A stretch of 64,000 bases of DNA, taken from assembly GCF_008124865.1 (NCBI RefSeq), contig NZ_VNHY01000002.1, positions 744,001 through 808,000 of the forward strand, written 5' to 3'. The DNA comes from Fodinibius salinus. GTDB taxonomy: Bacteria > Bacteroidota > Rhodothermia > Balneolales > Balneolaceae. A model generated the notes under the pieces. It made no database searches. It had not been told where the DNA came from and saw only the letters and a program-made list of their open reading frames with translations. The first letter of the stretch is position 1; every line of letters starts with the position of its first letter. A program made the translations under genes and the position numbers. Below are positions 44,886 through 52,262 of the stretch, piece by piece.

Positions 44886-45656
44886 TTATTCTTCGGGTAA
44901 AACGAGTATGGGCATTTTTGTATATACCGTTTTTTGGATATGCTCTTCTTCCACAAGAGATTGGAAAAATGTTTTTTGGCGTCGTGTCATTACAATAAGT
45001 TCGTTGGCTTCGTCATCTAGAAAAGCAGATATGCCGGTATAAAAATCTTTTTCGATAAGTAGTCTGAAGTTAAGTTGTGAATAGCTAATTTCTTCATTAG
45101 CTATTTCTTTGAATCCCCTAAACTTTGCTTTTGTTTCCAGATTATCTTCAGCAGCAATATGGAGTACCGTAATTTTGGCGTTAAAAAGTTCAGCCCATTT
45201 AGTTAGCTGATGGAGGATTTCCAGATTTCTGTTGTGGAAATCAGTTGCAAAGGTCATATGGCTAAAATCTGAATAAGGCTGATCTGCAGGAACGACAAGG
45301 ACGGGTACTGGTGATTGGAGCATAATATCTGATGAGATACTGCCAAACAGCATTTTTCCTATGTTAGATTTTCCTGTTGATCCCATAATAATCAGATCAC
45401 CAGAAGATTCTAGAATATTGGGAACCGTACTACCCAATTCGATACTGGTAGTGATTGACAAATCACTGTACCTATTTTGACTAATTAACTCTTCCATCAT
45501 TGTTTCTGATCCGTACGTATATGGCTGTTTCACAGAGTGCATAATTGATAAATCAGCATCGCATTTGTCAGCAATTTCTAAGGCATATTGCAAAGCATTT
45601 TGGGCAGGTTTGGAAAAATCAGTAGGAAGAAGTATCTCTTTAATATTATCTAACAT
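44886..45656 (-). CDS. Tandem universal stress protein
   Basis: A 256-residue protein of two USP domains. Domain 1 (about 1-125) has EILLPTDFSKPAQNALQYAL and the ATP-binding G-x2-G-x9-G-S motif as GSTGKSNIGKMLFGSISSDI, ending PVPVLVVP. Domain 2 (about 130-256) lacks a clear G-x2-G motif and ends MPILVLPEE. Tandem USPs are typical stress or energy-status proteins in Bacteroidota. It is followed upstream on the same strand by a decayed paralogue ending 6 bp away. Confidence 0.9.
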   Translation of the reverse strand: MLDNIKEILLPTDFSKPAQNALQYALEIADKCDADLSIMHSVKQPYTYGSETMMEELISQNRYSDLSITTSIELGSTVPNILESSGDLIIMGSTGKSNIGKMLFGSISSDIMLQSPVPVLVVPADQPYSDFSHMTFATDFHNRNLEILHQLTKWAELFNAKITVLHIAAEDNLETKAKFRGFKEIANEEISYSQLNFRLLIEKDFYTGISAFLDDEANELIVMTRRQKTFFQSLVEEEHIQKTVYTKMPILVLPEE

Positions 45657-45662
45657 AAATAA

Positions 45663-46320
45663 TTAGCTTTTTTTCATTATTGATGAGCTTGCCCCCGATA
45701 ATACCAGCAGTGGTACTTCCGTATAATAGTTGATCTCTTTTGATTCTTGTTTGGAAAGTGGTGGAACAGATTCATCGCAGTGTACTAATAGGAGTAGTAT
45801 GATACTATTAGTTTCTTTTTTATTGATGATTGTTTCAAGGAAAAATTTGGGTTGATCTACTTCAAATTGAAGGGTAGTATAATTAACTTTTCCAATAATT
45901 ATTTCTTTGACTCCCCGAAACATGTTTTCGGTTTTAAGATCACTTTCATCAGATAGATGGAAGGTATTTATTTTAGAAATGAACAGTTTTGCCAACCCGG
46001 TTACAAATAGCAGGACTTTTAATCTTGATTCTTGTAGTTAGTGACAAAGAGAGCTTGCTTGATAGCCATTTTAGAGAGCTTCTTTGGGTTCGAGTGTTAT
46101 ACTATTTCAGCAGTAGTACTGCTCCGAAACATCTTTCCCAGTCCTAGTTTAACCTTTGGTCCCCATAACGATCATGGCGATATCCTGACTTGTTGATCTC
46201 TTTCAACATGTGTAGGCTAAATATCGACAAACCGAATATGATTTTGTTGCTTTGCTCTTCGTCAAATATGCTCGGCGTTACATTTTTAATCGTAGTACTG
46301 TCAGGGAAAAATTTGACTAC
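45663..46320 (-). pseudogene. Decayed tandem universal stress protein gene
   Basis: Reading the minus strand from 46320, three frames are needed to follow a USP sequence. The first frame has VKFFPDSTTIKNVTPSIF then FDEEQ, and EINKSGYRH before a stop. A shifted frame gives MIVMGTKG. Another gives LGLGKMFRSSTTAEIV followed by a stop, then KMAIKQALFVTNYKNQD and stop. Finally the intact end frame (45663-45995, 110 codons) has FRGVKEIIIGKVNYTTLQFE and EVPLLVLSG, paralogous to domain 2 of the neighbouring USP (FRGFKEIANEEISYSQLNF). The N-terminal domain start is not visible. The 110-codon ORF alone would look like a hypothetical gene but is the tail of this pseudogene. Confidence 0.75.
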
Positions 46321-46511: not shown

Positions 46512-48005
46512 ATGGATGCTAAATTTGAGATATCAACAGATGAACAGATTATAAATCCAGTATGTGATTTTACGTACAGCTGGGGGGTGAACTGTGGATT
46601 GTCAAAAGGGGAAGCACTTCGTTTTTCTGTAGCCGTGAGTGAGCTCATTACAGATGTTATTCTTTTTGCCTTTCCTGGTGATAGTAAAGAGAATTTTGAG
46701 ATAGAGTTTTCTCATACATTCTCCAACGTAGAAATTGTAGTTAGTGAAATGGGCGAACCATTTGATCCGGATCGTCATACGTATGATGTGCAAAAAGTAC
46801 GTGATGAGGATGATTTCGATGGTGCGGGTTTTTTGCTCATGAAATCTTTTAGCGATGAATTTTCTTTCATTAATAAAGGAAAAGAAGGTAAAGAATTCAG
46901 GATAGCTAAAAACATTCAAATCCATGATATAGATGAACTGCTACTGCAATCAGCTGAAGAACGTGAGGCTGAAATACGAGATGAGGAAGATCAAGACCCC
47001 CATATAAAAATTGAAAACTTTACCGTCGATCGCATTAAGCATACTGATGCGGAAGATATCTCAAAACTTTTTTATCGTACATATGGCTATACCTATAATA
47101 AAGAAGATTTGTACCTACCGAAAAAGGTTGAAGAGTCAGTACTTGCCAAAGATAAGCTTGGGGTTATAGCCCGAAAACAAGATAATGAGGCAATTGGATA
47201 TTTTGGCGTAAATCCTAAAGACAACTCCGATATTGCAGAAGTTGCCGAAGCTGTAGTGTCTCCCAAGTATCGAAGAAATGGGGTGATGAGTTCGATGATG
47301 GACCGCCTTATTGAAATCGCGAAATCCAAGCAGTTGACTATGTTGTTAGGTGAGGCTGTTACCATCCATCCCGTAAGCCAAAAAGTAAATAATAAATTCG
47401 GATATAAGACAACAGCTATAGAACTAGCTTCTTCGATAAATGTTAAGTACAAGGGTTTTGATGAGGATTATCCCCAACCTGTATCCATAGCTTTAGATTT
47501 TCTTCCCCTCATCCAGCCTTCAAAAAAAGCAGTATATCTGCCGGAGAAATATAATGAAATTATTCTCGATACATATGATGAGTTGGGGATGGATGTAGAT
47601 CCCAAAGAAACAGAATCTTACCAGTTAGCAGATAAATCTGATATTGATCTGGAAATAGATTATTCCAGCTCCTCTTCACTCATTATTGTCAAGAAATATG
47701 GAAACGATTTTTTGACTGTACTTTCTGATATGGTGGACAGCCTGGAAGAAAAGTCTCCGAAAACGATATTGTTGGATTTACCTCTAGAAAATAGAGCTAC
47801 ACCGCAGCAGTTTTTAGATATAACATCTTTGAATTTTATCTACAGTGGGCTATTGCCACAGTATCATTTTAATACCGATTATCTCCGGCTGCAAAAAGTG
47901 TATGCTGGTATCGATTTTAATATTATTGATATCTATTCCGATTTTGGTAAAAAAATAAAATCACTTATTGCTGATGAATACCATAGCAACTCAAAAGAAA
48001 GGTAA
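46512..48005 (+). CDS. RsbW-like ATPase domain fused to GNAT acetyltransferase
   Basis: A 497-residue protein. Residues 1-140 form an anti-sigma-factor-like HATPase domain. The N-box region reads AVSELITDVILFAFPGD, where family members usually have E-x-x-x-N-A-x-x-H-A, so the Asn is Asp. VSEMGEPFDP stands for the G1 box and FDGAGFLLMKSFSDEF for G2. Residues about 165-300 are a GNAT domain (FTVDRIKHTDAEDISKLFYR, EAVVSPKYRRNGVMSSMMDR with acetyl-CoA loop R-R-N-G-V-M). About 300-497 is a further domain I do not recognise. The next gene, a STAS protein, overlaps by 32 bp. Partner switching between this protein and STAS is a reasonable inference. Confidence 0.8.
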   Translation: MDAKFEISTDEQIINPVCDFTYSWGVNCGLSKGEALRFSVAVSELITDVILFAFPGDSKENFEIEFSHTFSNVEIVVSEMGEPFDPDRHTYDVQKVRDEDDFDGAGFLLMKSFSDEFSFINKGKEGKEFRIAKNIQIHDIDELLLQSAEEREAEIRDEEDQDPHIKIENFTVDRIKHTDAEDISKLFYRTYGYTYNKEDLYLPKKVEESVLAKDKLGVIARKQDNEAIGYFGVNPKDNSDIAEVAEAVVSPKYRRNGVMSSMMDRLIEIAKSKQLTMLLGEAVTIHPVSQKVNNKFGYKTTAIELASSINVKYKGFDEDYPQPVSIALDFLPLIQPSKKAVYLPEKYNEIILDTYDELGMDVDPKETESYQLADKSDIDLEIDYSSSSSLIIVKKYGNDFLTVLSDMVDSLEEKSPKTILLDLPLENRATPQQFLDITSLNFIYSGLLPQYHFNTDYLRLQKVYAGIDFNIIDIYSDFGKKIKSLIADEYHSNSKER

Positions 48006-48270
48006 AAAACTTAACATAACGGTCCACGGTGATTTTAATCTAAGGACTAAAAAGATGATATTAAGTCGTCTTAATCCGGCTATTGACAAGCTGGTTATAA
48101 ACTTAATTAATTGTGAACGTATTGACAGTGAGGGTGTTATTTTTTTGCACCGATGGCTGCAAAAAGGGAATAAGTTACGACTTATTGACCCACCTGTTGT
48201 CTTCTTTGAAATACTTGAAATTTTAAGTCTTGAAAATTTGTGGAACTTTGACAAAATCCTAGCTGACTAA
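47974..48270 (+). CDS. STAS-domain protein
   Basis: I start at the ATG at 47974 (MNTIATQKKGKKLNITVHGD). A TTG two codons earlier is also possible. The 98-residue product has the STAS pattern: strand (LNITVHGDFNLRTKKMIL), strand (DKLVINLINCERIDSEGVIF, with D-S-E-G at the phospho-Ser loop position), helix and strand (LRLIDPPVVFFEILEIL). It overlaps the end of the ATPase-GNAT gene by 32 bp, which favours co-translation. STAS proteins of this size act as anti-sigma antagonists (SpoIIAA/RsbV-like) that bind RsbW-type ATPases. Confidence 0.75.
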   Translation: MNTIATQKKGKKLNITVHGDFNLRTKKMILSRLNPAIDKLVINLINCERIDSEGVIFLHRWLQKGNKLRLIDPPVVFFEILEILSLENLWNFDKILAD

Positions 48271-48281
48271 ATATATAGCAT

Positions 48282-48893
48282 ATGTCTAATGAATCTTCTT
48301 CAATGATTGATATTACAGATGACCCTAATTTATGGAACCGCTTCTTTATGGTTCATGCTCTGCTTGTCATTGGCAGTCAAGAAAAGGATAAGAGTTATAA
48401 TTTGGCCCCCAAACATATGGCCATGCCCCTTGGTTTTGGTCCATATTTCGGTTTTATGGGTACGCCCCGGAAAACAACGTATCGAAATATTAAGCGAGAA
48501 GAAGTTTTTACCGTTAGCTTTCCACAGCCCGACCAGCTGGTACAAACCAGCATGGCAGCTTCTCCCCGTGAAGAGGATGACAGCAAACCAGTTGTTGATG
48601 CCATTCCAACTGTGAAAGCCCAAGAAATAGAGGGCAAATTTATGGAAAATTCCTATTTACAGCTCGAATGTGTTTTGCATGACATTATGGGAAAGTTTGG
48701 CGAATGGGAAATGATTGTTGGCGAAATTGTAGCGGCTTATGTACATGAAGATGCGCTCAGGAAAGAAGGGGAGGATGCTGACGACAATAAACTTGTTGAT
48801 GAATCTCCATTATTAGCCTATCTGCATCCCGATCGATTTAGTACAATTAAAAAAAGTAACAATTTTCCCCTGCCAAAAGATTTTAAAAGGTAA
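48282..48893 (+). CDS. Flavin reductase-like FMN-binding split-barrel protein
   Basis: A 203-residue protein resembling the flavin reductase/FMN-binding split barrel: YNLAPKHMAMPLGFGPYFGF (the S/N-x-A-P-x-S/H-x flavin-contact region) followed by FGFMGTPRKTTYRNIKREEVF and TVSFPQPDQL. The C-terminal half has LECVLHDIMGKFGEWEMIVG and EIVAAYVHEDAL, the family's closing strands. Related proteins bind FMN and act as oxidoreductases or flavin donors. It lies 11 bp after the STAS gene and directly before the M20 peptidase gene, so these four genes may form one unit. Confidence 0.75.
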   Translation: MSNESSSMIDITDDPNLWNRFFMVHALLVIGSQEKDKSYNLAPKHMAMPLGFGPYFGFMGTPRKTTYRNIKREEVFTVSFPQPDQLVQTSMAASPREEDDSKPVVDAIPTVKAQEIEGKFMENSYLQLECVLHDIMGKFGEWEMIVGEIVAAYVHEDALRKEGEDADDNKLVDESPLLAYLHPDRFSTIKKSNNFPLPKDFKR

Positions 48894-48902
48894 TTGAACA
48901 GG

Positions 48903-50063
48903 ATGACAGAATTAGGTCGGGAGCTGCATAATTTTTTTGTGGAAAAGAAAGCGGATTTTATTGATCTGCTTCAATCGCTTGTCGAACAGGAAACGCCGTC
49001 GAATGAGCCTTCTTCTTTCACTGAGATATTAGAAATTGTCAGCCGAAATTTTGAAAACTTGGATTTTGATGTAGAGTATAGAGAAGGAGAGGAAACGGCC
49101 GGGCAGTTACTTTGTAAACCTGGCGATTTTAATTCTCAGGCTCCAACTCAGCTTCTAGTTGGACATATTGATACAGTCTGGGATATTGGGACGCTGGATG
49201 AAATGCCTTTCACCGTTGAAGGCAATGAAGCTGCCGGACCTGGTATATTTGATATGAAAGCCGGCATCTGTATGATGATTTTTGCTATGAAAGCTATCAG
49301 GGAACTTGAGAAACAGCCCCACATACAACCTGTATTTTTAATTACTACCGATGAAGAAATTGGGAGCGGAGAATCTAAAAATCTTATTATAGAACAGGCT
49401 AAACAGGCAGAGCGGACTTTTGTGCTGGAGCCTTCCCTTGGAACAGAAGGTAAGATTAAAACCGAGCGTAAAGGTATTGGTCAGTTTGAAATAACTATAA
49501 AAGGCCAGCCCTCCCATGCGGGTCTCGATCCTGAAAAAGGAGTAAGCGCGATTGTCGGCTTATCAAATGTTGTCCAACAGCTTGTGGACCTTAATGCACC
49601 CGAAAAGGGTATAAGCGTAAATGTAGGGACGATAGAGGGAGGTGAGCGGGCTAATGTTGTGGCAGCTAAAAGTAAAGCTGTAGTTGATGTACGAGTACCG
49701 ACAAAGAAAGACGGTGAAGAAATAAAGAAGAAGATCTACAATATTGAACCCGATTTGGAGGGAGTTGAAATTACGGTGAGCGGTGATATCAGTCGCCCGC
49801 CGCTTGAAAAAGAAGAAGCAAACGCAAAGCTGTGGGAGATAACGAAATCATTAGGTGCAGAGTTAGATCTGGATTTACAGGAAGGTAAGTCAGGCGGTGG
49901 CTCCGATGGTAATTTTACCAACCTCTATTCACCGACTATTGATGGACTCGGTGCCGTTGGTGAAGGAGCTCACGCTTATCATGAAAAAATATTAGTGGAA
50001 GAGACGCTTAAACGTGCTGAGCTTTTAACCCTTTTGCTGTTATATCCTTCACTGGAAGATTGA
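48903..50063 (+). CDS. M20-family metallopeptidase (carboxypeptidase G2-like)
   Basis: A 386-residue M20 peptidase from the ATG at 48903. A TTG at 48894 is an alternative, but it stands only 4 bases after the AAAAGG site. Motifs: LVGHIDTVWDIGTLDEMPF (metal His and Asp), GPGIFDMKAGICMMIFAM (bridging Asp), ITTDEEIGSGES (catalytic Glu-Glu), LEPSLGTEGKIKTERKGIG, GQPSHAGLDPEKGVSAI (dimerisation-domain His), and GGGSDGNFTN with EGAHAYHEKI (last metal His). It hydrolyses C-terminal amino acids, probably glutamate, from peptides or folate-like conjugates. Confidence 0.9.
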   Translation: MTELGRELHNFFVEKKADFIDLLQSLVEQETPSNEPSSFTEILEIVSRNFENLDFDVEYREGEETAGQLLCKPGDFNSQAPTQLLVGHIDTVWDIGTLDEMPFTVEGNEAAGPGIFDMKAGICMMIFAMKAIRELEKQPHIQPVFLITTDEEIGSGESKNLIIEQAKQAERTFVLEPSLGTEGKIKTERKGIGQFEITIKGQPSHAGLDPEKGVSAIVGLSNVVQQLVDLNAPEKGISVNVGTIEGGERANVVAAKSKAVVDVRVPTKKDGEEIKKKIYNIEPDLEGVEITVSGDISRPPLEKEEANAKLWEITKSLGAELDLDLQEGKSGGGSDGNFTNLYSPTIDGLGAVGEGAHAYHEKILVEETLKRAELLTLLLLYPSLED

Positions 50064-50592: not shown

Positions 50593-51357
50593 TTGAAAAA
50601 AATAAACCAAATATTACAAAAATGGCCTCAAAAGACTGTTATAACCACTGACTGGTTAAAGAGACAGGGTGTATCTCGGCAATCAGTTGATAACTACAAA
50701 AACAGTGGATGGTTAGAACGGATAGGTCAGGGAGCATATAAAAGGGAAGGTGATGAAATATCGTGGGAAGGAGCCTTATATGCGCTTCAGAAGTTCCAAA
50801 GTCTTTCAATTCATGTGGGAGGTAAAACTGCTTTAGAGCTGCAGGGATATGGCCACTATATTAAAATAGGCACTCATGAAAAGGTAATACTGTGGAAAAC
50901 ACCTGAAGTAAGGTTGCCATCATGGTTCAAGAGTTATGATGGATGGGCAAATGAATTGGAAGTACGGTCTGCTACTCTTTTTTCTAAAGAAGTAGATACT
51001 CTTTCTGATACAACTGTAGGACAGGTGGAAGTCCAGATATCATCGGCTGAACGAGCTGTATTGGAATATATATATGATGTGCCGAAACAGGAAGGTTTTG
51101 ATGAGGCCAATTACATCATGGAAGGGCTTGCTTCACTGCGTCCAAAAGTATTACAGCAATTACTTGAAGCATGTAATTCAGTACGATCCAAGAGGCTTTT
51201 TATGTATTTGGCTGAGCACCATGATCATAGTTGGTTTAAGAGATTAGATCCTTCAAAAATAGATTTTGGAAAAGGTAAACGAGAAATAATAAAAGGCGGT
51301 AAGCTGAATAAAAAATATAAGATAGTAGTACCGGAGTTGTCCAGGGAGGGCCGATGA
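50593..51357 (+). CDS. abiEi: AbiEi-type antitoxin (type IV toxin-antitoxin)
   Basis: A 254-residue protein starting at TTG 50593. The N-terminal winged helix (about 1-60: WPQKTVITTDWLKRQGVSRQ, YKNSGWLERIGQGAYKR) and the following AbiEi domain (SIHVGGKTALELQGYGHYIK, SSAERAVLEYIYDVP) match the antitoxins of AbiE abortive-infection systems. The C-terminal part (about 180-254) carries LAEHHDHSWFKRLD and a basic tail. There is no Shine-Dalgarno sequence before the TTG, so initiation is weak or leaderless, but no other start keeps the HTH. It overlaps the toxin gene by 4 bp. Confidence 0.9.
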   Translation: MKKINQILQKWPQKTVITTDWLKRQGVSRQSVDNYKNSGWLERIGQGAYKREGDEISWEGALYALQKFQSLSIHVGGKTALELQGYGHYIKIGTHEKVILWKTPEVRLPSWFKSYDGWANELEVRSATLFSKEVDTLSDTTVGQVEVQISSAERAVLEYIYDVPKQEGFDEANYIMEGLASLRPKVLQQLLEACNSVRSKRLFMYLAEHHDHSWFKRLDPSKIDFGKGKREIIKGGKLNKKYKIVVPELSREGR

Positions 51358-52262
51358 TTGACCGATATCGGGATCAAGTACGGCTATTGCTAAAGGTACT
51401 GCCTGTTGTGGCAGAAGTAGAGGAATTTGCTCTCAAAGGAGGTACGGCAATTAACTTTTTCTGGCGTAATCTCCCACGACTATCCGTGGATATTGATCTT
51501 ACCTATATACCAATTAAGAATAGGGAAGAATCTTTAAATGAAATCAAAAAAGGAATAAAGCATATAGGCCAAACCGTTTCTTCAAGAATTGGCGATGCAA
51601 ATGTTACTACTCAAAAAAGTGGTGGAATTCTGAGTAAGCTTCTAATAAGAAGTGATGGGGTCCAGGTAAAGTTGGAAGTAAATACGGTTTTAAGAGGATC
51701 GCTATTTGGGTCTGTTGAGAAAGAATTGGTTACTTCGGTTCAGGATGAATTTGAACTATTTGCGGCAGTTCCCACGCTTTCGATGGAAGACCTATACGGC
51801 GGAAAGCTTTGTGCAGCATTAGATCGTCAGCATCCCCGGGATCTGTTTGATGTGAAGCTATTACTTGAGAATGAGGGCTTAACGGATAAAATTATTGTTA
51901 CTTTTATTGGATATCTAATTAGTCATTCCCGTCCCATAAACGAACTGTTAAATCCCAGCCAGCAGGACCTCGAAGGAATCTATGAGAATGAATTTCAGGG
52001 AATGACAAATGAAGCTGTATCCTTAGAAGATTTAACTAAGGTGCAGAAAAAGTTGCCGAAGCTGCTTCTGGATGGTTTATCGGATGAGCAGAAAGAATTT
52101 CTATTAAGTTTCCAGCAAGCCGATCCGAAATGGGGATTAATGCCAGTAGATCATTTGAAAGAATTGCCGGGTGTACAATGGAAGCTCATAAATATTAGAA
52201 AGATGGATGATAAGAAGCATGAAGAAACTCGAGAAAAGCTAGAGAAGGTGTTGGGAAGATAG
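51354..52262 (+). CDS. abiEii: AbiEii/AbiGii-type nucleotidyltransferase toxin
   Basis: A 302-residue DNA-polymerase-beta-like nucleotidyltransferase. FALKGGTAINFFWRNLPRLS carries the GG-T/S motif and SVDIDLTYIPI the D-x-D metal motif. KLEVNTVLRGSL, TLSMEDLYGGKLCAALDRQH and PRDLFDVKLLLENEG are further family motifs. AbiEii toxins transfer nucleotides to tRNA acceptor stems or other RNAs and stop growth when released from the antitoxin. All motifs look intact, so the pair is likely functional. ATGA overlap (51354-51357) with the antitoxin gene couples translation. A stem-loop follows at 52278. Confidence 0.92.
   Translation: MIDRYRDQVRLLLKVLPVVAEVEEFALKGGTAINFFWRNLPRLSVDIDLTYIPIKNREESLNEIKKGIKHIGQTVSSRIGDANVTTQKSGGILSKLLIRSDGVQVKLEVNTVLRGSLFGSVEKELVTSVQDEFELFAAVPTLSMEDLYGGKLCAALDRQHPRDLFDVKLLLENEGLTDKIIVTFIGYLISHSRPINELLNPSQQDLEGIYENEFQGMTNEAVSLEDLTKVQKKLPKLLLDGLSDEQKEFLLSFQQADPKWGLMPVDHLKELPGVQWKLINIRKMDDKKHEETREKLEKVLGR

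Follow-up and report, generated by a model that had tools for sequence, protein, structure and literature searches.

Organization of the Locus

The window analysed here is a stretch of 64,000 nucleotides from Fodinibius salinus, corresponding to positions 744001-808000 of contig C2 in a genome of 2.86 Mb. On its forward strand (46512..48005), it carries an open reading frame for a 497-residue fusion protein in which an ATPase domain is followed by a GNAT acetyltransferase domain and a further C-terminal domain. An ATPase-GNAT fusion had been proposed in a preliminary description made from the nucleotide sequence, and this was borne out by the Pfam matches and by comparison of the predicted model (mean pLDDT 88.6, pTM 0.65) with PDB structures. 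The RsbW and SpoIIAB models of NCBIfam matched the protein only with scores far under their cut-offs. The same architecture is probably widespread in databases under automatic names.

A STAS protein of 98 residues is encoded immediately downstream on the same strand (47974..48270). Its ATG at 47974, read directly from the sequence, gives a 32-bp overlap with the end of the fusion gene, the length that had first been described. The STAS gene is followed by a flavin reductase-like (split-barrel) gene (48282..48893, forward strand; PF01613, 51.7 bits against a cut-off of 27) and by a gene for an M20-family hydrolase (48894..50063, forward strand; PF01546 and PF07687), for which the nearest NCBIfam models scored below their cut-offs. 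A role of the pair as a defence system was set aside, as PADLOC gave no match for the fusion or the STAS protein.

Two further features were observed in the surroundings. An AbiEi/AbiEii type toxin-antitoxin pair lies downstream of the M20 gene at 50593-52262 of the window (PADLOC E-values of 5.4e-92 and 1.9e-117). The minus strand at 44886-45995 carries a universal stress protein gene with an upstream partial open reading frame of 110 residues in the same direction, which resembles a universal stress protein and is possibly a broken copy.

The ATPase Domain and Its Altered N-Box

Residues 1-140 of the fusion (46512..46931, forward strand) form an RsbW/SpoIIAB-like GHKL ATPase domain. The preliminary description had made its reading depend on an ATPase fold in the N-terminus, and such a fold was found both by profile and by structure. 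HATPase_c_2 of Pfam matched residues 15-132 with 44.3 bits (cut-off 27.4), while the model of residues 1-136 aligned with SpoIIAB (1th8_A; Z 17.5, rmsd 2.2, 128 aligned residues) and with RsbW (6m37_C; Z 17.1, rmsd 1.7, 115 aligned residues). A profile of the domain matched RsbW 6m36_A with an E-value of 2.3e-18.

The nucleotide-binding boxes were located at E44 and D48 (N-box), E79-x-G81 (G1 box) and G104-A-G106 (G2 box), and the residues at these positions were counted in 51 aligned fusions, comprising 43 rows linked to a STAS gene and 8 distant rows. The N-box Glu44 was invariant (51/51). The second N-box position, which completes the Glu-x-x-x-Asn pattern of RsbW/RsbV-type modules, is Asp48 in the window, in agreement with the substitution initially noted; among the STAS-linked rows it was Asp in 39 of 43 and Asn in the other four, with no other residue seen. 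Seven of the eight distant rows have Asn here and one has Ser, and the N-box Asn is likewise retained, on inspection by eye, in the canonical RsbW-like proteins encoded elsewhere in this genome. Because Asp prevails within the clade and Asn in both of these comparison groups, the N-box Asp is, as judged from the alignment, a kept and constrained trait of the STAS-linked clade and not a product of decay.

The other two boxes also vary within this clade. Position 79, where RsbW has its G1-box Asp, was Glu in 41 of 43 STAS-linked rows and Asp in two. The second glycine of the G2 box (position 106) was kept in 33/43 and replaced by Ser, Ala or Cys in the remaining 10/43. Kinase activity of the fusion is therefore doubtful, given that the N-box Asn is mostly Asp and that the second G2 glycine is lost in 10 of the 43 rows.

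The Acetyltransferase and C-Terminal Domains

The GNAT domain spans approximately residues 168-342 (47013..47537, forward strand). Acetyltransf_1 of Pfam matched residues 182-279 with 43.6 bits against a cut-off of 20.7, and the model over about 168-342 aligned with the GNAT enzyme 5isv_B (Z 14.3, rmsd 3.8, 155 aligned residues) and with further GNAT enzymes at Z 13-14. The acetyl-CoA loop of GNAT enzymes follows the rule R/Q-x-x-G-x-G/A, many of them having Gly or Ala at the last position. The R-R-N-G-V-M loop that had been pointed out at the start was recovered within the domain as R254-R-N-G257-V-M259. Across the 51 aligned fusions, R254 is found in 50 and G257 in 48, and all 51 end the loop with Met, Phe or Leu. 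The domain also contains a Tyr-rich motif (Y188, Y191, Y193, Y195, Y201 and P203), of which Tyr188, Tyr191, Tyr201 and Pro203 are invariant in the alignment; this invariance suggests that the fusions have a substrate site in common.

The conservation of the individual parts was compared over the 42 genomes with both fusion and STAS genes. The GNAT domain was the best conserved part, with a mean pairwise identity of 57%, followed by the ATPase domain (46%), the C-terminal domain (37%) and the STAS protein (35%). Pairwise identities of the STAS protein correlated with those of the ATPase, GNAT and C-terminal domains at Spearman coefficients of 0.46, 0.37 and 0.35, values that carry little weight as shared ancestry was not controlled.

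The C-terminal domain (about residues 336-497; 47517..48002, forward strand) had been described as unrecognised, and it stayed so: a profile search of the PDB returned no credible relative, and the whole-model fold search barely covered this part. Its order of helices and strands, assigned by DSSP, is like that of a second GNAT domain, as would suit an internal duplication, but without the R/Q-x-x-G-x-G/A loop. A direct profile comparison between the C-terminal and GNAT domains gave no significant similarity (E 0.065, with a probability of about 1%).

A search of plasmids with the fusion gave one partial match, confined to residues 165-303, in a GNAT gene of a Salmonella plasmid (L103:3998-4882). 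This gene has the Tyr-rich GNAT domain in common with the fusion and is without the ATPase part; it adjoins acyl-activating genes, and the profile similarity is limited to the GNAT part.

The STAS Protein and Its Candidate Phosphosite

The small open reading frame, tested from 47983, scored 20.4 with STAS_2, which is below the Pfam cut-off of 29.2. Its predicted model (pLDDT 94.1) had RsbV and SpoIIAA as the best PDB matches, with a TM of about 0.7, and chains of the MlaB type were also among the profile and model matches. The candidate phospho-acceptor is S52, within I-D-S-E-G. In profile alignments this position coincides with the phosphosite of SpoIIAA and RsbV. Among the 45 aligned STAS proteins, 30 have Ser and 15 have Thr here, and a Ser/Thr was also found in one further locus (L065), giving 46/46; the preceding residue was Asp or Asn in 45/45. 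A Ser or Thr at this position could instead be structural, as a helix cap.

The preliminary description had offered two mechanisms. In one of them, the switch would work by acetylation of the STAS protein, carried out by the GNAT domain, in place of phosphorylation. The consistent encoding of both proteins together in close relatives would agree with such a relationship. However, no column of invariant lysine was found among the 45 aligned STAS proteins, set against a Ser/Thr phosphosite in all of them and in L065, which disfavours this proposal; acetylation of the N-terminus would still be compatible with the data, but as a whole we consider the proposal very improbable. The evidence is best matched by the other mechanism, control of acetylation through binding of the STAS protein.

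The features of the two proteins also bear on the main rival to a switch. The ATPase domain may be a non-phosphorylating scaffold, with the STAS protein as a constant structural component of the acetylating enzyme, in the way that MlaB belongs to the Mla transporter. The replacement of the N-box Asn by Asp, of the G1 Asp by Glu and of the second G2 glycine in part of the clade all fit a scaffold, as do the MlaB-type chains among the STAS matches and a neighbourhood with neither a phosphatase gene nor a second RsbW-like gene. Yet position 48 alternates only between Asp and Asn and position 79 only between Glu and Asp in all 43 rows, with Glu44 invariant, as in a working but altered site, and the STAS phosphosite keeps its Ser/Thr throughout. 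On balance, we regard a constant, unswitched subunit as rather unlikely, at perhaps one chance in several.

Conservation of the Gene Pair

Within the family, 27 long matches to the fusion were found in 26 of 92 genomes, and all other matches were limited to the ATPase part. Of the 12 genomes of the genus that were searched, four (G009, G012, G015 and G016) were without the fusion. As it is present in only part of the genomes, the fusion is an accessory trait. A scan of genome contigs revealed more copies in Rhodothermales and Aquificota (Hydrogenothermaceae, Persephonella, Desulfurobacteriaceae and Thermovibrio), and one in a record titled Candidatus Dependentiae. The scan used peptide patterns from the ATPase and GNAT parts and is therefore biased towards close relatives, but copies were selected without regard to the STAS gene.

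In all 46 close relatives whose contig extends far enough, a STAS gene was located directly downstream of the fusion, and most of these loci had overlapping reading frames. The loci comprised 26 from Balneolaceae, three from Rhodothermia and 17 from Aquificota, with each contig counted once; two loci that reach a contig edge (L027 and L071) were left out, and three of the 17 Aquificota fusions are partial or broken in their contig. The retention of the STAS neighbour by orthologues, on which the preliminary description had also relied, thus held for every close relative counted, and the count of 46/46 rules out a chance juxtaposition of the two genes. One genome (G043) carries two copies of the fusion (L013 and L088), each with its own STAS gene.

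In the tree of fusion rows, all 43 STAS-linked rows grouped together (100/100), and those of Balneolaceae and Rhodothermia were split from the Aquificota rows (99/97); the midpoint root served for drawing only. The tree gave no sign of recent exchange between the phyla.

The other two genes of the operon were less constant. The flavin reductase-like gene was present in 26/26 Balneolaceae and 1/3 Rhodothermia loci, and the M20 hydrolase gene in 26/26 and 3/3, respectively. The 17 Aquificota loci yielded neither gene; their pairs sit in different gene surroundings, and the flanks of several are short. Both genes were rejected as core partners on this ground, which leaves the STAS protein as the constant partner of the fusion.

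More distant HATPase-GNAT proteins of the same phylum (L091, L093 and L097) have the same three-part layout at 21-28% identity. Nine distant loci were inspected (L077, L091 to L097 and L099), and none had a STAS gene of the window type downstream (0/9), with L093 offering only 236 bases there. In six of the nine, no STAS gene of any kind was seen in the stretch examined, which for five of them included only about 1.5 kb of flank; the fusion may therefore exist without a STAS gene in some relatives. The remaining three (L091, L093 and L097) carry a canonical-looking STAS gene directly upstream of the fusion, and in two of these (L091 and L097) a separate small RsbW-like gene accompanies it upstream in the same direction. 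The neighbours were assigned with Pfam for L091 and by eye for L093 and L097. The wider family thus shows the association with STAS again, with the genes in a different order, and this makes the functional link stronger.

Genomic Context of the Proposed Switch

Whole-genome searches confirmed that neither a sigma factor nor a PP2C phosphatase is encoded nearby, as had been noted at first. SpoIIE-type PP2C genes were found only at C2:122167, C4:270233 and C1:384859, none of them in the window. The genome contains 13 sigma-70 region-2 genes over the cut-off, none in the window, and the nearest on the same contig are at C2:722501 and C2:890664. No second RsbW-like gene was found near the fusion. 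A canonical cluster of STAS, RsbW-like and SpoIIE phosphatase genes is present in the same genome at 120273-122745 of contig C2. The phosphosite of the STAS protein in that cluster reads A-S-A-G.

This cluster, together with sigma genes that all lie elsewhere, would fit a reversed direction of control. The GNAT domain might sense acetyl-CoA or an acetylated metabolite and set the hold of the ATPase domain on the STAS protein, which would then act in trans on a target encoded far away, for instance a sigma factor or a further RsbW-like protein. Against this reversal, conservation within the fusion is highest in the GNAT domain, including the Tyr-rich motif and the acetyl-CoA loop, as in a working enzyme, and the pair has other gene surroundings in Aquificota. 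We consider such an arrangement improbable.

Proposed Mechanism

Partner switching is represented by RsbW/RsbV and SpoIIAB/SpoIIAA, with which the present pair shares the ATPase and STAS folds, adjacent genes, the N-box Glu and the phospho-acceptor Ser/Thr. It differs from them in that the ATPase is fused to a GNAT and a further domain, that the N-box Asn is mostly Asp, and that neither a sigma factor nor a SpoIIE-type PP2C is encoded nearby. We propose that the two genes form a partner-switching module in which an acetyltransferase takes the place of the sigma factor as output and the STAS protein gates it through the ATPase domain, and we assign this reading a probability of roughly 55%. In its favour, the likeness of the ATPase domain to SpoIIAB/RsbW and of the STAS protein to RsbV/SpoIIAA provides both sides of a known complex. 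The constant STAS neighbour, the invariant Glu44, the Ser/Thr at the STAS phosphosite, the retained R254 and G257 of the acetyl-CoA loop and the high conservation of the GNAT domain also speak for it. It is weakened because no SpoIIE-type phosphatase gene lies nearby and because the STAS protein scores under the Pfam cut-off, and further by the altered N- and G2 boxes and by the six distant loci in which no STAS gene was seen.

The analysis establishes the domains, the pairing of the genes and its persistence in at least two phyla, and the retention of catalytic positions; from these we infer binding, phosphorylation, a direction of control, acetyl transfer and a substrate as follows. The STAS protein would dock onto the RsbW-like domain at the N-terminus of the fusion, and its docking would turn the attached GNAT domain on or off. 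Phosphorylation of S52 by the ATPase domain of the fusion, or by another kinase in the cell, would release the STAS protein, which a phosphatase encoded elsewhere would reset. The C-terminal domain may complete the enzyme or hold the substrate. In the clade of the window, STAS phosphorylation would depend either on the fusion, through its altered ATPase site, or on a kinase acting in trans. Where the distant loci encode an RsbW-like kinase of their own, this may set the phosphorylation state of the STAS protein, as SiaB is described to do for SiaC (PMC8457831).

Control of enzymes by STAS proteins is already known. According to the excerpts consulted, the STAS protein HsbA and the phosphorylatable partner SiaC of Pseudomonas aeruginosa bind and control diguanylate cyclases in a phosphorylation-dependent manner (PMC5085249, PMC8457831). 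The likeness of HsbA/HsbD and SiaC/SiaD to the present pair lies in a STAS-type partner that controls an enzyme, but there the enzyme is a diguanylate cyclase, and those excerpts make no mention of an RsbW-like receiving domain fused to it (PMC5085249, PMC8457831). In Vibrio fischeri, the small STAS protein SypA works with the RsbW-like kinase SypE, and the output is not a sigma factor; as far as the excerpt goes, SypE is a kinase/phosphatase with no acetyltransferase, unlike the fusion (PMC10120452). Closer in layout are the distant L091, L093 and L097 proteins, with the same three parts; they differ in that their canonical-looking STAS gene lies upstream and that Asn is kept at the N-box in 7/8 distant rows. 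In the part of the open-licence PubMed Central literature covered, we found no report of an RsbW-GNAT fusion or of a STAS-controlled acetyltransferase.

More tentatively, and with distinctly less confidence than in the module itself, it is conceivable that the STAS protein gates the acetyltransferase in a phosphorylation-dependent way, that domains using ATP and acetyl-CoA in one chain let the cell weigh ATP against acetyl-CoA, and that the fixed change from Asn to Asp marks an ATPase site modified for this task.

Partner switching is known mainly for the release of sigma factors, with a few cases in the control of cyclic-di-GMP synthesis. If the proposed module is correct, this pair of small proteins, conserved across two or more phyla, would extend the outputs of partner switching by a new class, the acetyltransferases, and would connect protein phosphorylation directly and physically with acetyl transfer.
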